A stretch of 35,791 nucleotides of DNA from Nitrosomonadales bacterium. GTDB taxonomy: Bacteria; Pseudomonadota; Gammaproteobacteria; Burkholderiales; Gallionellaceae. The notes beneath the pieces were generated by a model. The model searched no databases, was not told the DNA's origin, and saw only the letters and a list, made by a program, of their open reading frames with translations. A program made the translations under genes and the position numbers. Numbering within the stretch: the first letter of the stretch is position 1; every line of letters starts with the position of its first letter. The DNA lies in NCBI GenBank assembly GCA_016213335.1, contig JACRAQ010000064.1, positions 1 to 35,791 of the forward strand, given 5' to 3'. Shown here in pieces: positions 1-13,820 of the stretch.

Positions 1-1
1 C

Positions 2-229
2 GGGCGCGCCGAATATGTGGCCATCAACGACGACGAGGCGCTGGCGGCATTCCACGATCTGTGCCGTTACGAAGGCATCATCCCGGCGCTGGAATCCAGC
101 CACGCATTGGCCCATGCCGCGAAGGTTGCGCCTGGCATGGGCAAGGACAAGGTGCTGCTGGTGAACCTCTCCGGGCGCGGCGACAAGGATATCAATACGG
201 TGGCCAGACTGGCGGGGATCACGCTATGA
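2..229 (+). CDS. trpB: Tryptophan synthase beta chain, C-terminal part
   Basis: Partial gene entering from the left edge; only about 75 C-terminal residues are present. TrpB condenses indole with serine on pyridoxal phosphate to give tryptophan, in complex with TrpA. The visible stretch has typical TrpB C-terminal features: [14 protein letters not shown], the region that lines the active site, and [10 protein letters not shown], whose SGRGDKD motif belongs to the cofactor-binding end of the enzyme. The stop codon TGA overlaps the ATG of trpA (ATGA), which indicates translational coupling in a trpBA operon. The upstream start lies outside the window. Confidence 0.95.
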
Positions 230-1020
230 GCCGCATCCAGACCACCTTCGAAAAACTCAGGCTGCACAGCCGCAAGGCGCTGATCCCGTTCATCACGGCA
301 GGCGACCCCAGCCCGCAACTCACCGTGCCGCTGCTGCACGCGCTGGTGGAAGCGGGTGCCGACGTGATCGAACTGGGCGTGCCGTTTTCCGACCCGATGG
401 CGGATGGCCCGACCATCCAGCGCGCTTCCGAGCGCGCGCTGAAGCATGGCGTATCGCTGCACGATGTGCTCGCCATGGTGGCGCAATTCCGCAACAAGAA
501 CAGCGCTACGCCGCTGGTGCTGATGGGCTACGGCAACCCCATCGAAGCGATGGGCTGGGAGCGCTTCGCCAAAAACTGCGCGGAAGCCGGAGTGGACGGC
601 GTGCTGACCGTGGATTTCCCGCCCGAGGAAAGCCACGAGGCATTCGGCCATTTGCAGCGCCACGGCATTGATCCGATCTTCCTGCTGGCGCCGACCACCC
701 GGGATGAGCGCATCGCCAAAATCGCAAAACAGGCACGCGGCTATGTTTATTATGTCTCGCTCAAGGGCGTGACCGGCGCCGGAAATCTGGACTTGACAGA
801 TATCGCGCAGAAAATGCCGCACTTGCGCCAGCACATCAGCCTGCCCATCGGCGTGGGCTTCGGCATCCGCGATGCGGCCACGGCGCGGGCGGTATCGCGC
901 CTGTGCGACGGTGTGGTGGTGGGCAGCCGCATCGTGCAGGAAATCGAGAACTCGACTGAGCAGAACGTAGTTGGCAACGTGAGCAGGCTGGTCAAGGAAC
1001 TGCGAAGCGCGGTAGATTAA
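226..1020 (+). CDS. trpA: Tryptophan synthase alpha chain
   Basis: 264-aa TIM-barrel enzyme that cleaves indole-3-glycerol phosphate and channels indole to TrpB. The sequence begins [11 protein letters not shown] and shows the family motifs [11 protein letters not shown], the catalytic-Glu segment [13 protein letters not shown] and [11 protein letters not shown], plus the phosphate-binding GVGFGIRDA near the C-terminus. Length is normal for the family. The ATG overlaps the trpB stop by four bases, so this start is favoured over the longer upstream reading frame, which overlaps trpB out of frame. It sits directly upstream of accD, as in other betaproteobacterial trp-accD-folC operons. Confidence 0.97.
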
Positions 1021-1031
1021 AGCTGGTGATT

Positions 1032-1095
1032 GTCATTCCCGCGCAGGCGGAAATCCGGCTATTAATAACTGGGCTCCCGCTTGCGTGGGAGCGAC
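1032..1095. repeat. Paired-hairpin intergenic repeat between trpA and accD
   Basis: Two palindromes lie head to tail: an imperfect one starting GTCATTCCCGC and a second of the form GCTCCC/GGGAGC, joined by an AT-rich spacer containing TAACTGG. The same architecture (attcc-type hairpin, spacer, gctccc-type hairpin, end GACG) is seen at 26682-26746 and, in variants, at 19759 and 2435. This is a dispersed, MITE-like repeat family. Its position just after the trpA stop may influence trpA-accD read-through, but this is inference. Confidence 0.75.
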
Positions 1096-1115
1096 GAAGC
1101 AAAGGAGAGTATGCG

Positions 1116-2003
1116 ATGAGCTGGTTCCAGAAACTGTTGCCCCCAAAAATCAAGCGCCGCGAACTGGGCGAAGAAGGCAAGAAGAATGTGCCGGAAGGCT
1201 TGTGGCACAAATGCGCGTCCTGCCAGACGGTGCTGTATCACTCGGACATGGAGAAAAATCTCAATGTCTGCCCGAAATGCGGCCATCATCACCGCATCAC
1301 TGCGCGCACCCGGCTGGATTGGCTGCTGGACCTCGAAGGGCGTTTCGAGATAGGCGCCGAGGTGCAGCCGCTGGATACACTCAAGTTCAAGGACAGCAAG
1401 AAATACAGCGAGCGCCTGACTGCTGCGCAGGCGGATACCGCCGAGAGCGACGCGCTGGTGGTAATGCAGGGCAGTATCCACGCCATCCCGCTGGTGGTGG
1501 CGGTGTTCGAGTTCAACTTCATGGGCGGCTCCATGGGCTCGGTGGTGGGCGAGCGTTTCGTGCGCGGCGTGCAGCTTGCCACCGAACAGAAAACTCCCTT
1601 TGTCTGCTTCGCCGCGAGCGGGGGCGCGCGCATGCAGGAAGGCCTGCTGTCGCTGATGCAGATGGCCAAGACCTGCGCCGCGCTGACCCAGCTGAGCGCG
1701 GAAAAACTGCCGTTCATTTCCGTGCTGACCGACCCGACCATGGGCGGTGTTTCCGCCAGCTTCGCCTTCATGGGCGATGTGGTGATCGCCGAGCCCGGCG
1801 CGCTGATCGGATTTGCCGGCGCGCGCGTGATCCAGCAGACCGTGCGCGAAACGCTGCCGGAAGGCTTCCAGCGCGCGGAGTTTCTGCTGGAACACGGCGC
1901 GGTGGACATGATCGTGGACAGGCGCGAAATGAAAAACCAACTGGCGACGCTGATTACCCTGCTGACCAACCAGCCGAAAGTGGCGGAGATAGAGGCGGCT
2001 TAG
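1116..2003 (+). CDS. accD: Acetyl-CoA carboxylase carboxyltransferase subunit beta
   Basis: 295-aa beta subunit of the carboxyltransferase that, with AccA, moves the carboxyl group from biotin-BCCP to acetyl-CoA in the first step of fatty-acid synthesis. The N-terminal zinc ribbon is visible as two CxxC pairs (about C33/C36 and C52/C55). It is followed by the crotonase-like carboxyltransferase core with [20 protein letters not shown] and the [11 protein letters not shown] segment. The start at 1116 ([10 protein letters not shown]) is preferred over an upstream in-frame start because it matches the family N-terminus and follows a good AAAGGAG ribosome site. Spacing to trpA is enlarged by a palindromic repeat. 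Confidence 0.96.
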
Positions 2004-2030
2004 CCTGCATTAGACACACTTATGAGCAAG

Positions 2031-2112
2031 CGTAGGCTGGGCTGAATAAAATGAAGCCCAGCATTCCATCGCAAAATTCCGCTGGGTTTCGCTTCGCTCA
2101 ACCCAGCCTACG
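2031..2112. repeat. 82-bp element with 11-bp perfect terminal inverted repeats, spanning the folC start
   Basis: The left end CGTAGGCTGGG (2031-2041) is the exact reverse complement of the right end CCCAGCCTACG (2102-2112), and an inner GCCCAGC/GCTGGGT pair forms a second stem. The folC ATG at 2051 lies inside it, and the right arm is translated as part of the FolC N-terminus (segment SAGFRFAQPSLRS). It resembles a dispersed palindromic repeat that is widespread in proteobacterial genomes. Confidence 0.8.
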
Positions 2113-3493
2113 TTCGTTAGCCGACTGGCTTTCTTATTTAGAATCCCTCCACCCCAAATCCATCGCGCTCGGCCTGGAGCGCGTGGCACAGGTCAAACAG
2201 CGTCTGAACCTCAACCCCGATTTTCCCATCATCACGGTCGGCGGCACCAACGGCAAGGGCTCGGTGTGCGCGATGCTGGAAAGCATGCTGCACGCCGCCG
2301 GATACCGCGTCGGCTGCTATACCTCGCCGCACCTGCTGGATTACAACGAGCGAGTGCGCATCGCAAAAAAACCGGCAAGCGATGCGGAGCTGTGCACGGC
2401 ATTCGAGAAAGTAGAAGAGGCACGTAAACCGCAACTGGATTCACGCCTGCGCGGGAATGACGACCTCCCTGAAATTCCACTCACCTATTTCGAGTTCGGC
2501 ACACTCGCGGCGATGCAGCTTTTTATCGAAAAACAGGTGGAGGTTGCGATTCTCGAAGTCGGTCTGGGTGGCAGGCTGGACGCGGTGAATGTGTTCGACA
2601 GCGATTGCGCGGTGGTGGTCAGCGTGGACATGGACCACATGGACTATCTGGGTGATACGCGCGAAAAGATCGCTTACGAAAAGGCGGGGATTTTCCGCAA
2701 AGGCTGCGTGGCGGTATTCGGCGACCCGGACATGCCTGCGGCCATCGCCAGTGAAGCGCAACGCATCGGGGCGGAGCTGTGGCGGTTGGGGGGAGAGTTT
2801 GGCTTTGACGGGTGCTCCCCCACCCCTCACCCGTCCCCGGAGGGGGAGGGGCCTCTAATCCCCTCTCCCCTTGGGGGAGGGCTGGAGAAGGGGCAGATGT
2901 GGTGGAACTACCGCAGCAAAATTGGCGCGCGCAATTCCTTGCCCTACCCCGCCCTGCGCGGCGCGTACCAGCTCAACAACACCAGCGCGGCGCTGGCCGC
3001 ACTGGATGCGCTGAAAGACAGGTTGCCGGTGAGCATGGAGGCCGTGCGCCGCGGGCTGGCAGAAGTTGTTTTGCCGGGGCGTTTCCAGGTGCTGCCGGGC
3101 AGGCCGCAGATCATTCTGGATGTGGCGCACAACCCGCACGCAGCCCGCTCTCTGGCGCGCAATCTCGCAGACACCCCGCCCTGCCGCAAGACGATCGCGG
3201 TATTTTCCATGCTCGGCGACAAGGATATAGCCGGTGTGGCGCGCGCACTCGACGGGCAAGTGGATGTCTGGCTGGTGGCCGGGATCAACGCCCCGCGCGG
3301 GCTAAGCTCTGCCGAGCTGGCCCGGGTGCTGCTTGACGCGGGAGTGAAAGGCGCGGTACGGACGTTCGATACAGTGGCGGATGCGTTGCGGCAAGCCTGC
3401 AATGAGGCTGCCGAAAATGATAGAATCGCCGCCTTCGGCTCATTCTATACGGTGGCGGAAGCGATGCGCGCTCGCGGCCTGCGTTACGCCTGA
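2051..3493 (+). CDS. folC: Bifunctional folylpolyglutamate/dihydrofolate synthase, enlarged by repeat insertions
   Basis: 480-aa ATP-dependent ligase that adds glutamate to dihydropteroate and to folates. Visible motifs are the P-loop GTNGKGS (65-71), the lid region DYLGDTREKIAYEKAGIF, PGRFQVLP, DVAHNPHAAR and a C-terminal Mur-ligase-type domain. It is longer than the usual ~420-440 aa because three palindromic repeats are read in frame: one at the N-terminus (about residues 10-22), one giving LDSRLRGNDD (about 129-138) and one giving PHPSPEGEG...PSPLGGGLEKG (about 256-281). No frame is broken, so the enzyme may still work if these are surface loops. ATG 2051 is the only plausible start; its ribosome site is weak and lies in a repeat. 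Neighbours are accD and dedD, the normal order. Confidence 0.93.
   Translation: MKPSIPSQNSAGFRFAQPSLRSLADWLSYLESLHPKSIALGLERVAQVKQRLNLNPDFPIITVGGTNGKGSVCAMLESMLHAAGYRVGCYTSPHLLDYNERVRIAKKPASDAELCTAFEKVEEARKPQLDSRLRGNDDLPEIPLTYFEFGTLAAMQLFIEKQVEVAILEVGLGGRLDAVNVFDSDCAVVVSVDMDHMDYLGDTREKIAYEKAGIFRKGCVAVFGDPDMPAAIASEAQRIGAELWRLGGEFGFDGCSPTPHPSPEGEGPLIPSPLGGGLEKGQMWWNYRSKIGARNSLPYPALRGAYQLNNTSAALAALDALKDRLPVSMEAVRRGLAEVVLPGRFQVLPGRPQIILDVAHNPHAARSLARNLADTPPCRKTIAVFSMLGDKDIAGVARALDGQVDVWLVAGINAPRGLSSAELARVLLDAGVKGAVRTFDTVADALRQACNEAAENDRIAAFGSFYTVAEAMRARGLRYA
2435..2462. repeat. Palindromic repeat inside folC
   Basis: A CTGGATTC...GGGAATGACG hairpin of the ATTCCC/GGGAAT family lies in frame in folC and encodes the tell-tale peptide LDSRLRGNDD. 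Related copies are at 1032, 19759 and 26721. Confidence 0.8.
2813..2900. repeat. C-rich/G-rich palindromic repeat inside folC
   Basis: Alternating CCCCTC and GGGGGAGGGG blocks form two hairpins read in frame as PHPSPEGEG and PSPLGGGLEKG. This signature belongs to a widespread proteobacterial palindromic repeat family that often lies between genes; here it is inside one. The base composition (C run, then G run) is unlike the surrounding folC codons. Confidence 0.8.
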
Positions 3494-3546
3494 ACTTTCT
3501 TCTGTAAACACACCGTGGCGCGGAAACGCACAATGGAACATAACTG

Positions 3547-4122
3547 ATGGATGAAGAATCCAACCTGAAGCGCCAGGCAAGGCGGCGGCTGATCGGCGCG
3601 GTTGCGCTCACGACCGCCATCGTGGTGCTGCTTCCCGTGGTGCTGGACAGCGAGCCAAAACCGGCCGGGCAGGATATCGAACTGCGCATTCCCGGCAAGG
3701 ACAAAGCGGGCGAATTTGCGCCAAAAATTGACTTGCCGCCCACCAGCCTGCCCGCTGCAACGCCGCCCCTCCCCTCCTCCCCGGTTGCAGCCGCTCCGGT
3801 CCTTGCCGCATCGCAGGTTGCAGCAACGCCCGAGGCTGCCGCTGCGCCACAGGCAGCAGCAAAAGACAAACCCGCAGAACAACCCCAGGCCGCACCGCAG
3901 CCCGCTTTCGCGGTGCAGGTCGGCGCCTACAGCAAAACCGATACCGCGCATTACCTGCAAAAAAAACTGAGCAAGGAAGGCTTCAAGGCCTACACCGAAA
4001 AGGTTGCCGACAAAACCCGCGTCCGCACCGGCCCTTATGCCTCGCGCGAGGCGGCGGAAAAAGCGCGCCTCAAACTTGAAGCGCAGGGGCTGCACCCTGA
4101 AATTGTCACCTTGCCGCAATGA
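3547..4122 (+). CDS. dedD: DedD-like SPOR domain cell-division protein
   Basis: 191-aa inner-membrane protein. It has a short cytoplasmic N-terminus rich in Arg/Lys, one transmembrane helix (about residues 17-35, LIGAVALTTAIVVLLPVVL), a long Ala/Pro-rich periplasmic linker, and a C-terminal SPOR domain beginning AFAVQVGAYSKTDTA and ending in ...GLHPEIVTL. SPOR domains bind denuded septal peptidoglycan, and DedD assists constriction at the division site. The folC-dedD-cvpA-purF order is conserved in beta- and gammaproteobacteria. The stop codon overlaps the cvpA start (ATGA), suggesting coupled translation. Confidence 0.9.
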   Translation: MDEESNLKRQARRRLIGAVALTTAIVVLLPVVLDSEPKPAGQDIELRIPGKDKAGEFAPKIDLPPTSLPAATPPLPSSPVAAAPVLAASQVAATPEAAAAPQAAAKDKPAEQPQAAPQPAFAVQVGAYSKTDTAHYLQKKLSKEGFKAYTEKVADKTRVRTGPYASREAAEKARLKLEAQGLHPEIVTLPQ

Positions 4123-4607
4123 CCTCGCTCGATTACATCGTCATCGTGATAATCGTTCTGTCGGCGCTGCTGGGCTGGTGGCGCGGCCTGGTGTATGAAG
4201 TCCTGTCGTTGCTAAGCTGGGTGGCGGCCTTCCTGGTGGCGCGCCTGCTGGCCGCCAGCGTCCTGCCCTATATGCCCGCTTCGCTGGGTTCCGAAGCCAT
4301 CCGGACGGCGACGGCCTATGCCGCGCTGTTCGCCGTCACCCTGCTGGTCGGCAGCATTGCGGCCTGGGCCTTATCCAAGCTGGTGAAATTTGTCGGGCTG
4401 GGCTGGCTGGACCGATCGCTTGGCGTGCTGTTCGGCGCGGCTCGCGGTGTGCTGGTAGTGCTGCTGCTGGTACTGCTGGCCGGCCTGACCGACTTGCCGA
4501 AGGAAGCGGCGTGGCGCAATGCCTGGCTGAGCAAGCCGCTGGAAAAAACCGCCCTGCTTACCCGGGCGTGGCTGCCGGATAACGTGGCACAACGTGTGCA
4601 TTATTAA
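4119..4607 (+). CDS. cvpA: CvpA family membrane protein
   Basis: 162-aa integral membrane protein with about four hydrophobic helices: LDYIVIVIIVLSALLGW, VLSLLSWVAAFLVARLL, ATAYAALFAVTLLVGSIAAW and GVLVVLLLVLLAGL. The family motif WLDRSLGVLFGAARG precedes the last helix. CvpA proteins are needed for colicin V export and envelope tolerance; the molecular role is unsettled. Located between dedD and purF with a four-base overlap to dedD and 12 bases to purF, as in related genomes. The start is fixed by the ATGA junction. Confidence 0.93.
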   Translation: MTSLDYIVIVIIVLSALLGWWRGLVYEVLSLLSWVAAFLVARLLAASVLPYMPASLGSEAIRTATAYAALFAVTLLVGSIAAWALSKLVKFVGLGWLDRSLGVLFGAARGVLVVLLLVLLAGLTDLPKEAAWRNAWLSKPLEKTALLTRAWLPDNVAQRVHY

Positions 4608-4619
4608 GGAAAGCAAACC

Positions 4620-6137
4620 ATGTGCGGCATTCTAGGCGTCGTCGCCCACACACCCGCCAACCAGATCCTGTATGACGGCCTGCTGGTGCTGCAGCATCGC
4701 GGCCAGGACGCCGCCGGCATCGCCACCGTGGATGGCAACACGTTCCACATGCACAAGGGCAACGGGCTGGTGCGCGACGTGTTCCGCACCCGCAACATGC
4801 GCGCGCTGCGCGGCAACGCGGGCATCGCGCACGTGCGCTATCCCACCGCCGGCTCCGCGATTGACCACAACGAAGCCCAGCCGTTTTACGTCAACTCGCC
4901 ATTCGGCATCATGCTCGGCCACAACGGCAATCTGACCAACACCAGGCAGTTGCAGGAAGAATTGTTTCTGGAAGACCGCCGCCACGTGAACACCCGCTCC
5001 GATTCGGAAGTGTTGCTCAATGTGCTGGCGCACGAGTTACAGGACAACTCCAAGAAATACCGCCTCGATATCCAGACCATCTTCGCCGCCGTCTCGGGCG
5101 TACACCGGCGCTGCCACGGCGCTTACGCGGTAGTGGCCATGATCGCGGGCTACGGCTTGCTGGCGTTCCGCGACAGCTACGGCATCCGGCCGCTGGTGCT
5201 GGGCAGCCATCAAACCGTGTAAGGCACGGAATACCTGGTCGCCTCGGAAAGCGTGGCGCTGGACACCCTGGGTTTCAAGCTGCTGCGCGACATCGCGCCG
5301 GGCGAGGCGGTGTTCATTGACTTCGACGGCAACTTCCACAGCCAGCAATGCGCGAAAAACCCGACGCTCAACCCGTGCATTTTCGAATACGTTTACCTGG
5401 CGCGCCCGGACTCGGTGATTGACGGCATTTCGGTATACGAAACGCGATTGAACATGGGCGAAAACCTGGCCGACAAGATCGCGCGCACATGGCCGCAGGC
5501 GGATATTGACGTGGTCATCCCGATCCCAGATTCCAGCCGCCCCAGCGCCCTGCAGCTTGCCAACCGCCTGGGCATCCCGTTCCGCGAGGGCTTCGTGAAA
5601 AACCGCTATATCGGCCGCACCTTCATCATGCCTGGGCAGGAGATGCGCAAGAAATCGGTGCGCCAGAAACTGAACGCGGTCAACGTCGAGTTCAGGAACA
5701 AGAACGTCTTGCTGGTGGATGATTCCATCGTGCGGGGTACCACAAGCCGCGAGATCGTGCAGATGGCGCGCGATGCCGGAGCGCGCAAGGTGTATTTCGC
5801 TTCCGCTGCGCCCCCGGTGCGCTTCCCCAACGTGTATGGCATTGATATGCCTTCACGCCGCGAGCTGATCGCCACCGGACGAAGCGACGAAGAAATCTGC
5901 TGCGAGATCGGCGCGGACGGGCTGGTCTACCAGGACCTGGATAGCCTCAAGGCGGCGGTGAGCAAGGCCAACCAGAAGGTGCAGCATTTTGAAGCATCGT
6001 GCTTCAACGGCGACTACATCACTGGCGACATCACGCCGGAATATCTTGACGAGATCGAGGCGGAGCGCGAAAACGGCAATGCAAACAAAACTGATGATGT
6101 CGGCCAGATGGATCTCAACCTGGCGATCAACGGATAA
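4620..6137 (+). pseudogene. purF: Amidophosphoribosyltransferase, interrupted by an in-frame TAA
   Basis: First enzyme of de novo purine synthesis (PRPP + glutamine to phosphoribosylamine). The frame starts MCGILGVV, so Cys2 is the glutaminase nucleophile, and contains [19 protein letters not shown] and the PRPP loop [14 protein letters not shown]. The total of 505 codons equals the normal length. Codon 201 (5220-5222) is TAA in ...GSHQTV[17 protein letters not shown], a well-conserved region, and the same frame continues without any indel to the natural stop. It could be a true nonsense mutation, a base-call error, or a read-through site. If real, the product would be an isolated glutaminase domain. 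A GTG/ATG restart at about 5253 lacks the nucleophile. Confidence 0.9.
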
Positions 6138-6148
6138 GGAATAGCGCC

Positions 6149-6203
6149 ATGCCAGCAAACCCTATCAGCCGGAAACGCTCGCCGTGCGCGCGGGTGCGGT
6201 GTG
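6149..6203 (+). pseudogene. Remnant of the metZ 5' end at the left island junction
   Basis: Twelve bases after the purF stop an ATG with an upstream AAGGA is followed by sequence matching the start of intact metZ at 13914. Allowing for one missing base it would read MPANPYQPETLAVRAGAV and then TGA, against MSEKNSYQPETLAVRAGAV in the intact gene. This marks where metZ originally followed purF before the island was inserted. Confidence 0.8.
6166..6201 (+). repeat. Left copy of 36-bp direct repeat flanking the island
   Basis: Begins CAGCCGGAAACGCTCGCC and ends GCGGTG. It differs at one base (T6195 versus C13964) from 13935-13970. The pair brackets the Dnd-like operon, the HepT-MntA pair and the hairpin element, and behaves like an attachment-site or recombination duplication. 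Confidence 0.85.
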
Positions 6204-6245
6204 AATCTCGTGTTGCGCACCGTTGCGCAAGAAACCCGACCACTG

Positions 6246-6275
6246 TTGAGAAATTCCACACTCACAAACTAAATT
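6246..6275 (+). promoter_or_regulatory. Possible promoter of the Dnd-like operon
   Basis: TTGAGA and TAAATT are separated by 18 bases in the AT-rich stretch just before the first gene, so transcription would start almost at the start codon (a very short leader). No clear ribosome site precedes that codon, in keeping with a leaderless-like message. Inferred from motif only. Confidence 0.3.
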
Positions 6276-6286
6276 AAAATGTGTTT

Positions 6287-7420
6287 ATGAGGCTTGCGAA
6301 CGCATATCAGGCTGAAGCCTTAACTCTGTGGGAAGCCATAGTGGCTGATATCAAGGCTGAGTATTTGTCTGAAGCTCAGCGCTACCCTTGGATTATTGGC
6401 TTCTCTGGCGGCAAGGACAGTACGCTGGTTGCCCAGGCCGTTCTGGAAGCAATTCTCTGCATCACACCTTCTGACCGCACCCGTGAAGTTCATGTGGTCT
6501 CCAACGACACTCTTGTAGAAAGCCCATTGGTTATCGCTCATATGGTCAAGGCACAACAACAGATTGAGGATGCCGCCAAAAACATGGGGCTCCCGATTAC
6601 TGTGGTGACCACCAAACCAGAAAAGGATAAAACATTCTGGTCGTTGCTTATTGGCAAGGGCTATCCTAGCCCCAACCAGAACATGCGCTGGTGTACCGAC
6701 CGCCTGAAAATACAGCCCACCAGCACCTACATTCTCAACAATATTTCCAAACACGGGGCTGCCATCGTGGTGCTCGGTGTGCGTAAAGATGAGAGCAATT
6801 CACGTCGCAATTCAATCGACAAGTTTCAGAACATGGAGAATTCAAATCTCACTCCTCACGTTGAATTGCCCGGTGCCTACATCTATCGCCCTATCGTTGA
6901 TCTCGCGCTAGATGATGTATGGGAAATTCTTGGCCAATATCCGCCCCCTTGGGGCGGCACACATAGAGACCTTATTCAGCTTTATCGTGATGCAGGAGGG
7001 GGCGAATGCCCCGTGGTACTATCCAAAGAAGAAGCGCCAGGTTGTGGTACGTCTTCCAGCCGGTTCGGATGTTGGACATGCACCGTCGTTGAAAAGGATA
7101 GAAGCCTTCAGGGATTCATTGATGTGGGCAATCACCACTTCAAAGCCCTAGTGGACTTTCGTGACTGGATTAAAGAAATTCGCAACAAACCTGAATACCG
7201 TCAAGTGGAGCGCAGAAATGGCCGGATGCAATTTGACCTGCTGTCTGGCAAACACATCCCTGGGCCGTTCACCATTCAGGCACGCAAGATGATTTTAGAC
7301 AAACTGCTGCAAATAGAAAAAGAATTTGGCGACAAGCTTATCAGCAAGGATGAAATTGATTTCATCGAATACACTTGGGCTGAAGAGCTGCTTCAAAAGG
7401 GGGGAAACAAAAATGGCTGA
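6287..7420 (+). CDS. dndC: DndC-like DNA phosphorothioation sulfurtransferase
   Basis: 377-aa member of the PAPS-reductase/PP-loop ATPase superfamily. DndC adenylates the DNA backbone and passes sulfur, via an Fe-S cluster, to make phosphorothioate. The PP-loop SGGKDS is at residues 40-45. Candidate cluster or sulfur-handling cysteines are C136 in MRWCTDRLK, C241, and C253/C262/C265 in GCGTSSSRFGCWTC, a DndC hallmark. First gene of a tightly packed operon; its stop overlaps the next start. The start could also be GTG 6281. BREX BrxP-type proteins share the domain, but the DndD and DndE-like neighbours argue for Dnd. The symbol denotes family resemblance. Confidence 0.85.
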   Translation: MRLANAYQAEALTLWEAIVADIKAEYLSEAQRYPWIIGFSGGKDSTLVAQAVLEAILCITPSDRTREVHVVSNDTLVESPLVIAHMVKAQQQIEDAAKNMGLPITVVTTKPEKDKTFWSLLIGKGYPSPNQNMRWCTDRLKIQPTSTYILNNISKHGAAIVVLGVRKDESNSRRNSIDKFQNMENSNLTPHVELPGAYIYRPIVDLALDDVWEILGQYPPPWGGTHRDLIQLYRDAGGGECPVVLSKEEAPGCGTSSSRFGCWTCTVVEKDRSLQGFIDVGNHHFKALVDFRDWIKEIRNKPEYRQVERRNGRMQFDLLSGKHIPGPFTIQARKMILDKLLQIEKEFGDKLISKDEIDFIEYTWAEELLQKGGNKNG

Positions 7421-7682
7421 ATCTAATTCGAGTGACTTGGCCTCATGGTACGCCATAAGTGAGGAGTCTAAAAAAGCAAATATGTCAGAAGTATATTTGG
7501 GTGATCTGCCGCTTTGGTCAGACAACGAAGCCAGAGAAGTCATGGAGAAACTGTGCGAACAGCATAACGTTCCTGTAGATGTACTCACCGAGCTCGTAGC
7601 GATTCAACGCCATAACCAAGATAGAGCCAAGGCGTTTGGTATATATGACGCCATCAGCGAAGTTTTAAGCCGCATGGATTGA
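7413..7682 (+). CDS. Small DNA-modification-system accessory protein
   Basis: 89-aa acidic, probably alpha-helical protein of unknown function; no catalytic motif is seen. It starts at ATG 7413, overlapping the dndC stop by eight bases, with the G-rich AAGGGGGGAAA as ribosome site; a longer in-frame extension into dndC is unlikely. It ends 10 bases before the dndD-like gene. The conserved-looking core is EVYLGDLPLWSDNEAREVMEKL. Small ORFs between dndC and dndD relatives are known in some sulfur-modification loci, so a role as adaptor or assembly factor is inferred only from position. Confidence 0.75.
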   Translation: MAESNSSDLASWYAISEESKKANMSEVYLGDLPLWSDNEAREVMEKLCEQHNVPVDVLTELVAIQRHNQDRAKAFGIYDAISEVLSRMD

Positions 7683-7692
7683 AAGGGTAACT

Positions 7693-9741
7693 ATGTGGAT
7701 TTCCCGGCTTGAACTCATCAATTTCAAAAGCTACCAACACCAGGTTTTTGAATTTCCCTCACCCACCCAGGGCAAGAATGTCATTCTCATTGGCGGGATG
7801 AATGGATACGGTAAAACAACCATTCTGGAAGCTCTCTATCTTGGCCTCTACGGTAAAGACTCTATCATCCATCTGGCTCGCGCGGGTATAAAAGGTGATG
7901 TGGGCTACCCCGTTTTTCTTGAGCGTGCTTTACATGGCCACGCATTGAAAACAAAACGCGACACGATGAGTGTGACAGTGCAATTCAACACCAACGAGAA
8001 TGAAGGTTTTCAAATCACACGCAAGTGGTTTTTCTCACCAAAAGGTGATTGGAAAGACGAAGAAATTCTGATTTACGACACCCGCGATGGTATTCGTACC
8101 CAAACTCGCAACGCCGAAGAGATTGAAGAAATTCTGGATCAATACTTTGTCCCGGCTCACCTCGCCCCATTTTTCTTCTTTGACGGGGAAGAGGTGAAGC
8201 GTTTGGCCGACCATAACCGTGTTGAGCAGATCAAGATGGGCATGGAAGGCTTGCTCGGAGTGGTGTTGCTCCGTAAGCTGGAAACCAGATTACAGCAGTA
8301 TCAAACCAACAAGAGCCAAGGTGTACCAAAGGTCGATGAGGAAAAGCATCGCCAATTATTGGAAGAGCTTACCCAGCACGAGCAACAGATGGAAGAAATG
8401 CAACGAAAAATCGTCTTGGCAGACGGGGAGCTAGGTACACTCAAGGCCGAACGCACCAATCTAATGAACCGTGTTATGGCTCTCGGTGGCGGTGGTGGCG
8501 ATATTGCCAACGCACGAGACATTGTGGAAGAAATGACCCATGCCGAGATTAACCTGAAAAAATGCCAAGACAATCTGGAGCAGGTATTGGGCTCACGCCT
8601 TCCGTTCCACCTTATTTCGCAAGAAGCCCGTGATGCTTATGTGGCTCAACTTAAGGCCGAAGAAGAGCGTATCAAGTGGGATACCCGCAAAAACAGCCTG
8701 GAGCCGGATAAAGAAAAATTTGTCTCTCGCTTTTTTGCGGAAGACGCCCCGCAATTCAATCCAAACCTGACATGTGAGCAACATACCACTGTGGTTCAGC
8801 GTCTTGAAGCCGCGTGGGAGAGTTTGTTTTATCCCTTACCCGATGGTTGCGCCGAAGAAATCGTCCACGACTACATTCATGGAATGAAACGTCAGCGGGT
8901 CATTGGCTTGATGGAAAATTTGAGTATCGGCGCTCAGGATATCCTTGTGTTTCTGGAACAACGAGATAGCCTGAATGAAAAGATTCGTAGTCTTCGCAAC
9001 CGCTTATCCAAAATTGAAGGCATTGACCGTGATGGCACGTTGACTGCCCTCAAGGCTGAAATGGATGCCGTCAACGGCAAGATTGACCAAAAGCAGAATG
9101 AGCTAAGCGATATTGAGAAAAGAACCGCAACACTCCAGGTTGACATCAATAATGGGCGCTCCAACTACCAGCGTGAACATGAGAAATTCCTGAAAGCCAA
9201 TCCGGTGAAATCAGATGTAGCTCGTGCCGAGCGTGTTTGTAAACTGATCAGTGACCTAATCCCCAGCCTTTATTCTCTCAAGGTAAACCGCCTGGCTCAT
9301 GCCATGACTACCGTCTTCCAGCAACTGTCACACAAGAAGCAAGTGGCACGCATTGAAATTAATGAGGCTGGCAAGTCTCGCCTCATCAGCTTTGAAGGTA
9401 ACGAAATTACATTTGATAAATCTGCGGGAGAAGACCAATTGTTTGCCACTTCACTGCTTGCAGGGCTTGCCGAAATATCCGGCATCAAGGCGCCATTGGT
9501 TGTCGATACCCCGCTGGCACGACTGGACAGTAATCACCGCAAAAACATCCTGAATTACTGGATTTCGGACAAGAGTCGACAAGTGTTCCTATTGAGCCAA
9601 GACAAAGAAATTGACGCCTCAGTTCTTAACGAATTGAAAGGCAGCATCGCACAGACGTACCTGCTTCAACACCAGCAAATTGGTAACGGTGTAGGCATGA
9701 CAACAGCCACCAAGAACACCTACTTTGGGGTCCAGCAATGA
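7693..9741 (+). CDS. dndD: DndD-like SMC/Rad50-type ATPase
   Basis: 682-aa ABC/SMC-type ATPase. The N-terminal half site has MWISRLELINFKSYQ and Walker A GMNGYGKTT (35-43), followed by FFFFDGEEVKRLAD. A long charged central region (about residues 210-520) is predicted coiled coil. The C-terminal half site carries the signature-like SAGEDQ, then Walker B PLVVDTPLARLD and LSQDKEID. DndD is the ATPase of the phosphorothioation complex, thought to use DNA-stimulated ATP hydrolysis to open or nick DNA for modification. No CxxC zinc hook is seen. It has a ribosome site GAAAGGG, starts 10 bases after the small gene, and its stop overlaps the next start (ATGA). Confidence 0.85.
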   Translation: MWISRLELINFKSYQHQVFEFPSPTQGKNVILIGGMNGYGKTTILEALYLGLYGKDSIIHLARAGIKGDVGYPVFLERALHGHALKTKRDTMSVTVQFNTNENEGFQITRKWFFSPKGDWKDEEILIYDTRDGIRTQTRNAEEIEEILDQYFVPAHLAPFFFFDGEEVKRLADHNRVEQIKMGMEGLLGVVLLRKLETRLQQYQTNKSQGVPKVDEEKHRQLLEELTQHEQQMEEMQRKIVLADGELGTLKAERTNLMNRVMALGGGGGDIANARDIVEEMTHAEINLKKCQDNLEQVLGSRLPFHLISQEARDAYVAQLKAEEERIKWDTRKNSLEPDKEKFVSRFFAEDAPQFNPNLTCEQHTTVVQRLEAAWESLFYPLPDGCAEEIVHDYIHGMKRQRVIGLMENLSIGAQDILVFLEQRDSLNEKIRSLRNRLSKIEGIDRDGTLTALKAEMDAVNGKIDQKQNELSDIEKRTATLQVDINNGRSNYQREHEKFLKANPVKSDVARAERVCKLISDLIPSLYSLKVNRLAHAMTTVFQQLSHKKQVARIEINEAGKSRLISFEGNEITFDKSAGEDQLFATSLLAGLAEISGIKAPLVVDTPLARLDSNHRKNILNYWISDKSRQVFLLSQDKEIDASVLNELKGSIAQTYLLQHQQIGNGVGMTTATKNTYFGVQQ

Positions 9742-13720: not shown

Positions 13721-13794
13721 CAGTTTGCGGCAGCAAGTGCTACTTTCTTCCTGCGCCGATTTGAGGAACAGCTTGCGGGCGCATAATAAATTCA

Positions 13795-13820
13795 GCTAAA
13801 GCGGGGGAGCCCGGTTTAGC
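13795..13820. other. Strong hairpin upstream of the structured element
   Basis: GCTAAA pairs with TTTAGC and, after one G-G mismatch, CGGG pairs with CCCG around a GGAG loop. It lies after mntA and six bases before the two-hairpin element. There is no T-run on the + strand, so it is not a standard terminator. It is absent at the second element copy near ettA. Confidence 0.7.

Follow-up and report, generated by a model that had tools for sequence, protein, structure and literature searches.

We consider it probable that three segments of the folC gene in a Gallionellaceae genome are dispersed palindromic repeats that were inserted in frame, with a DUF559 endonuclease as the likely mobiliser of the third repeat type. 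A wider proposal, on which we regard the scales as evenly balanced, holds that DUF559 endonucleases mobilise a broad class of bacterial palindromic repeats, with one hairpin type for each DUF559 subfamily. Such repeats would spread in two forms, the full element and a doublet without the gene, and, in contrast to REPs, would enter coding regions in frame, enlarging many Gallionellaceae proteins (about 20 in the genome studied here) and striking FolC repeatedly across species.

Three Palindromic Repeats in the Reading Frame of folC

The window, by which we mean the whole stretch of DNA analyzed (35,791 nucleotides), is contig C35 of a Gallionellaceae MAG (G000; 2.54 Mb in 144 contigs, 92.7% complete), from a relative of iron-oxidizing bacteria. 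The product of positions 2051-3493 is FolC, as judged both by its score against the NF008101 equivalog HMM (425 bits, cut-off 360) and by the fold of its model, which superimposes on the E. coli FolC structure 1w78 (Z 50.5, rmsd 1.8, 409 aligned residues); it contains the Pfam domains Mur_ligase_M and Mur_ligase_C. Among named records, those of Gallionellaceae, Gallionella and Candidatus Nitrotoga contain its closest relatives. The features of the gene and its repeats are as follows:

2051..3493, plus strand: folC, bifunctional dihydrofolate/folylpolyglutamate synthase, 480 amino acids, intact open reading frame
2031..2112, no strand assigned: site 1, TIR palindrome GTAGGCTGGG...CCCAGCCTAC across the folC start, coding for residues 1-21
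2051..2053, plus strand: folC start ATG, the sole in-frame ATG/GTG/TTG before the conserved W26
2426..2470, plus strand: site 2 insert (residues 126-140), flanked by E..AR125 and EIPLTYF
2437..2462, no strand assigned: ATTCCC-type hairpin core in site 2, with dispersed copies in the genome
2810..2890, plus strand: site 3 insert (residues 254-280), located in the turn that joins strands 250-252 and 284-289
about 2830..2851, no strand assigned: site 3 hairpin A, imperfect, CCCGTCCCC/GGGGGAGGG-like in sequence
about 2860..2881, no strand assigned: site 3 hairpin B, CCCCTCTCCCCTTGGGGGAGGG, of the type of the repeats that bracket DUF559 genes

A sequence-only reading of this DNA had described three repeat types within folC, all in frame, and their coordinates, frame and encoded peptides are borne out by the sequence. 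The TIR element that it placed at the start codon has two arms (2031-2062 and 2081-2112) of 32 nt each that are 78% complementary; the ATG at 2051 sits between them, so that the palindrome supplies the folC start codon. Its DNA folds far better than dinucleotide shuffles (z -4.47), and two further copies, both weak, are present in the G000 genome. Many relatives possess the N-terminus M-P-N-T-L-A-D-W at this position.

The ATTCCC-type hairpin said to encode LDSRLRGNDD is likewise present at site 2, where LDSRLRGND is encoded by GGATTCACGCCTGCGCGGGAATGACG (2437-2462) with one mismatch to the ATTCCC consensus; the pattern recurs in 28 copies in the G000 genome at up to three mismatches, and its reversed control in none. 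Another ATTCCC-type copy, with two mismatches, is located on the minus strand at window positions 1031-1056, at the start of accD. At site 3, the peptide PSPLGGGLEKG (coding from position 2861) was correctly recognized, but what had been taken for a single CCCCTC/GGGGAG-type repeat is actually two hairpins placed back to back. The CCCTC-type pattern occurs at 55 places in the genome, for a total of 59 strand-hits (up to three mismatches; control, none). Single-strand stability was discarded as a proof of sites 2 and 3, since it is not significant against dinucleotide shuffles (z -1.87, weak, for site 2; z -0.63, no excess, for site 3); both sites are recognized as repeats because dispersed copies exist, and not because of the stability of their stems. 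No match at the Rfam gathering score was found for the inserts of the window or of loci L048, L049, L053, L063 and L068. The sole Rfam match is a SAM_alpha riboswitch at window positions 13743-13820 (37.7 bits; gathering score 36), away from the inserts.

The alignment with relatives that the same reading had called for shows the segments to be absent from outgroup FolC proteins, from the E. coli and Yersinia pestis enzymes at site 2, and from the E. coli enzyme at site 3. The stretch S-A-R-G-D-I of E. coli FolC (1w78) aligns with A-R-K-P-Q-L-D-S-R-L-R-G-N-D-D-L-P-E-I of the G000 protein, and E. coli residues 230 to 236 correspond to residues 253 to 285; the Y. pestis enzyme likewise has no site 2 segment, and its own turn at site 3 is somewhat longer. 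In an AlphaFold model of the window protein built with 39 sequences (mean pLDDT 86.8, pTM 0.88), values below 50 are confined to residues 1-18 and 259-281, and the block 131-140 averages 62. When mapped on this model, as had also been proposed, the peptides fall in loops of low pLDDT; as far as the prediction goes, the insert segments are the poorly predicted parts of FolC and the remainder of the protein is ordinary. FolC with its inserts would, we infer, remain active.

The sole genome of the same genus (G001, listed as 100% complete) had been a candidate for an empty-site control and was ruled out, as folC is not located downstream of accD there: accD, on contig C68 (locus L199, positions 1-8000), is followed by three repeats and then by other genes, and the G001 genome gave only a weak FolC-like match.

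Recurrence of the Insertion Sites among Gallionellaceae

The family set comprises 60 distinct FolC rows, with named MAGs assigned by similarity and title, after the removal of eight identical rows; L086-L130 lie outside the FolC alignment. The outgroup consists of 17 rows, six of which were used in the tree, and one row counted as outgroup (L072) fell beside the Nitrotoga clade. Inserts of at least 6 amino acids are found at site 2 in 26 of the 60 family proteins (25, and L028 in a neighboring column) and at site 3 in 17; fewer than 6 extra residues are present in the other 34 and 43 rows, respectively. Elsewhere in FolC, only two rows have inserts of this size (L070 at the N-terminus and L063 at position 457). 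In the outgroup, two rows have 6 amino acids at site 2 and none has more, and site 3 is devoid of such inserts. Hence, the view of each repeat as an independent insertion specific to folC was not supported, as sites 2 and 3 recur family-wide and the left junction of site 3 is common to G000 and G006. Mapped on a core tree computed without the insert columns, presence changes at least 15 times at site 2 and at least 11 times at site 3, with gains and losses being indistinguishable in these counts. FolC as a specific hotspot was considered and rejected, since metG behaves alike.

The DNA of the inserts belongs to several unrelated types: ATTCCC, CCCTC/GAGGG, CCTTCCCCC/GGGGGAAGG, GTAGGTCGGG, and a decayed form found in the Nitrotoga clade. 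At its site 2, L082 has what appears to be a derivative of the GTAGGTCGGG hairpin of L059 with an in-frame deletion of 51 bases.

How much of this record reflects repeated insertion is debatable. The inserts at sites 2 and 3 could be old, inherited once and often lost or overwritten, and their variety could be a product of loop turnover or of recombination between folC alleles; we give this explanation somewhat less than an even chance. That part of the insert record is old is shown by junctions common to several genomes, namely that of site 3 in G000 and G006 and that of site 2 in G022 and G030; a full-length match to the 93-bp site 2 DNA exists in G030, G085 and G022 only. All nine Nitrotoga-clade rows retain an insert of about 18-20 amino acids at site 2, and this decayed, non-palindromic sequence resembles, and can be aligned with, that of G000. 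The FolC repeats of L048, L049, L053 and L068 are nested, with an additional 60-base element inside, which is also what one might expect of an old record. Against a single ancient origin, the insert-free rows keep an outgroup-like ARGDIPLTYF stretch, so that only exact losses could explain them, and different repeat families are found in sister rows (L043 and L044, for example). The sequence-only reading had named relatives with the same residues but without palindromic DNA as a sign of ancestral segments; the decayed Nitrotoga-clade insert at site 2 is such a case only in part, as the outgroups still lack the segment. Judged from sequence comparison, part of the site 2 and site 3 inserts may predate the lineage studied here.

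The 60-base element just mentioned (GATGGAAC..CTAGCCATTCGACTAGGC..GCCAAGTCGCTGGTTAT) is an observation in its own right. It is present in 48 of the 60 family genomes, its length preserves the reading frame, and it occupies the loop of other, unrelated palindrome types in many of the 34 flanks inspected. It was seen in folC (L048, L049, L053, L063, L068) and also at L234-L263, L199 and L174; no Rfam match to it was found in the loci searched.

DUF559 Genes Bracketed by Hairpins

DUF559 is still a family of unknown function in Pfam. Its profile (PF04480) finds matches in 43 of the 60 family genomes and, across the phylum, in 46 of 150 genomes (G000 included); 85 of the 99 family matches (E < 1e-20) were used. 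In these loci, the gene is preceded by a hairpin and a G-rich arm and followed by a C-rich arm and a hairpin. When the 150 bases 5' of each gene were compared with the reverse complement of the 150 bases 3' of it, 66 of the 85 family loci reached an inverted-flank score of at least 24 and 62 a score of at least 30, as compared with 18 and 6 of 1000 control pseudo-genes taken from family loci, 8 and 1 of 1000 taken from other loci, and one of 17 metG genes at a score of at least 24. Outside the family, 17 of 27 testable DUF559 loci scored at least 24; this set stems from 28 loci tried (L419 gave no frame), does not include L425, and retains L413 and L416, the first and perhaps also the second with a wrongly assigned frame. 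The test was not passed by 19 of the 85 family loci and by 10 of the 27 others. A generic hairpin test, which the stricter inverted-flank test superseded, detected hairpins on both sides of the gene at 59 of the 85 loci, as opposed to 32 of 164 and 212 of 900 background windows. Most loci originate from MAGs, and repeats break assemblies.

The DUF559 subfamilies differ in their hairpin type (clusters of 12, 50, 15 and 6, and two singles), and the two are correlated (Mantel r 0.56, permutation maximum 0.15), with the reservation that the 85 loci share ancestry, so that counts and the Mantel p are not independent and common descent contributes to them. Over the 60 genomes, CCCTC repeats and DUF559 occur together in 36, the repeat only in 5, DUF559 only in 7, and neither in 12 (odds ratio 12.3, p 1e-4 by a Fisher test, which ignores the tree).

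DUF559 itself is also found within conserved genes. HrpA of G000 contains a whole DUF559 domain between HA2 and OB, with CCCTC hairpins on either side and a frame free of stops; in MetG of G017, G021 and G028, DUF559 is located in the linker, in frame and without stops. It is positioned in frame upstream of Helicase_C in four further genomes and beside an MmeI methyltransferase domain in two. Long frames that join DUF559 with a helicase or an MmeI methyltransferase were noted at L336, L356, L358, L361, L363, L365 and L367; for L365 and L367, these may be restriction-modification fusions of the ordinary kind.

Inserts of folC with a length of at least 40 bp were compared with DUF559 flanks, with shuffled sequences as the control, as the control flank set held the folC inserts themselves. 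Scores of at least 45 were obtained for 11 of 24 inserts at site 2 and for 12 of 14 at site 3; no shuffled insert exceeded 32. Site 3 of the window reached a best score of 48 (shuffled, 26), and site 2 of the window found no match among the DUF559 flanks (24; shuffled, 23). Several site 3 inserts (e.g., L061) share the layout of a DUF559 element's two ends, the gene being replaced by about 40 bases, and by its sequence site 3 of the window resembles such a gene-less derivative.

The association could also be explained by passive tolerance of repeats that are moved by an unrelated mobiliser, with DUF559 being mere cargo or a frequent neighbor for which the hairpins serve as terminators or as a repair substrate; we regard this as possible, if less likely than not. 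Five of the 41 genomes with repeats do without DUF559, and 7 of the 19 without repeats possess it. Moreover, PMC12907096 ties the Caulobacter DUF559 protein VsrA to DNA damage and proposes for it a role in mismatch repair, not in mobility. Nevertheless, most DUF559 loci have both ends inverted and near the gene, and the hairpin type tracks the DUF559 subfamily. A RAYT as mobiliser was rejected for G000, since the Y1 transposase profile PF01797 has no match in this genome, though it does in 33 of the 47 searched. Among the DUF559 papers that our literature search returned, none was found on palindromic repeats, and we claim absence of the association from print within that search. We favor DUF559 as the probable mobiliser of the CCCTC-type repeats.

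CCCTC-Type Repeats in Other Conserved Genes

All 83 places of the two repeat types in G000 (55 CCCTC and 28 ATTCCC, up to three mismatches) were assessed, with long spanning open reading frames being scanned with Pfam. A repeat was considered inside a gene when Pfam-matched residues of one and the same open frame flank it on both sides; places without open frames, or with short ones only, were counted as outside. For the second purL place, the overlapping open frame of L174 served as the basis, and one scan of 59 TIR, ATTCCC and CCCTC loci did not include L159, which is the copy in folC. By this definition, 31 of the 55 CCCTC-type copies are inside genes and in frame. Among the ATTCCC-type places, folC alone is clearly within a Pfam-spanned region.

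The affected genes, with names assigned from Pfam content, are hrpA (seven places), mutS (three), purL, a Mur ligase gene and cysS (two each), and, with one place each, folC, a PF02636 gene, mfd, an SBP_bac_5 gene, a GCV_T gene, comEC, metG, an HI0933-like gene, bioA, leuS, an aminotransferase gene, murD, a peptidase M3 gene, coaBC and an AcrB-type gene. FolC had been presented as a singular case, a view that is not supported, as 19 other genes of the same genome contain in-frame CCCTC repeats (22 when three probable ones are counted). These three (L183, L272, L280) are probably inside split domains and were excluded from the 31 copies. In MetG, MutS, BioA and PurL, alignment with solved PDB structures shows that few or none of the repeat residues have a counterpart. 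The metG loop 305-320 carries repeats in G000, G006 and G013 (L282, L287, L292), and the metG linker 623-645 does so in other genomes.

The 31 in-gene copies use all six reading frames (7, 4, 4, 3, 9 and 4 copies). This argues for tolerance at linkers and loops and against a selected peptide; of the two options in the earlier suggestion, insertions tolerated or selected as a loop, tolerance is the simpler one. That the peptides were selected as helpful to FolC or other enzymes, for instance as flexible loops, is improbable in our estimation: the long persistence of the site 2 insert in the Nitrotoga clade would fit it, but besides the free use of frames, the low pLDDT and a sequence that decays while its length stays speak against it. 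An assembly artefact or a dead gene copy, for which the fragmented MAG and the frequent location of repeats at contig ends could be invoked, is very improbable given the like pattern in many independent MAGs and in named Nitrotoga and Gallionella records, and the long open frames in which conserved domains flank the repeats.

A Proposed Route of Repeat Spread

We suggest that the inserts survived where FolC tolerates extra residues, that is, at its N-terminus and in two surface loops, and that the site 3 repeat is part of a REPIN-like family of elements which has entered many housekeeping genes. The full-length element would consist of the DUF559 endonuclease gene with its two arms and terminal hairpins, and the short inserts would be derivatives that have lost the gene. 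The hairpin ends might be recognized, perhaps as folded single strands, and the DUF559 protein, a Vsr/PD-(D/E)XK-type endonuclease, would nick or cut hairpin ends or targets so that the element is copied, as is done for REPINs by RAYT. Gene-less doublets would travel with the help of full copies elsewhere, and selection would then filter insertions into genes such that in-frame copies in loops and linkers remain. Recognition, nicking, copying, the mobilization of repeats by DUF559, and the order of these events are steps that we infer.

If this proposal is true, FolC has been hit repeatedly across species, and housekeeping proteins have been enlarged by DUF559-mobilized repeats. The Gallionellaceae case extends protein-coding palindromes beyond the reviewed Rickettsia cases to a free-living bacterial family, offers natural replicates in the form of two FolC loops hit by different repeats in many species, and provides a testable candidate enzyme for CCCTC/GAGGG repeats together with a possible role, mobility, for DUF559.

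Comparison with Known Repeat Systems

The Rickettsia palindromic elements (RPE), reviewed in PMC10969869 and PMC2229807, are palindromes located in frame within conserved protein genes; according to PMC2229807, the gmk enzyme remains active with its insert. The Gallionellaceae repeats are also dispersed, palindromic, and in frame in conserved genes. They differ in that their 31 in-gene copies use six frames, whereas RPE use one open reading frame with a conserved peptide, and in their lineage, their shorter units and their association with DUF559.

With the REPIN/RAYT system (PMC3116915), they have in common inverted doublets of short palindromes that are non-autonomous, and a nuclease gene flanked by cognate repeats. 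An inverted palindrome doublet with a short spacer is found at site 3 of the window and at L006, L007, L061 and L070. With regard to the tags beside the site 3 palindrome, no GTAG is present in 2813-2895, and the one CGTC is possibly there by chance. The nuclease is DUF559 (Vsr-like) here, whereas RAYT is a Y1 HUH transposase. Placement differs as well: according to PMC3116915, the REPs of strain SBW25 lie nearly all outside genes, with a gene overlap for 14 of 1067 16-mers, whereas 31 of the 55 CCCTC copies of G000 are inside conserved genes.

MITEs of bacteria that contain in-frame open reading frames (the 107-bp Correia element, ERIC and RU-2; PMC2229807) are likewise small mobile repeats fused in frame, but the full-length Gallionellaceae element carries DUF559. 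Insertion sequences that target REPs (PMC1525189) use palindromes as an insertion target and in this respect recall the 60-base nested element, which, unlike those IS elements, has no gene and is found in several unrelated hairpin types. The CCCTC repeats work like both RPE and REPIN/RAYT and, by the features compared, belong to neither, being set apart from RPE by their frame use and from REPIN/RAYT by the transposase and by their placement.
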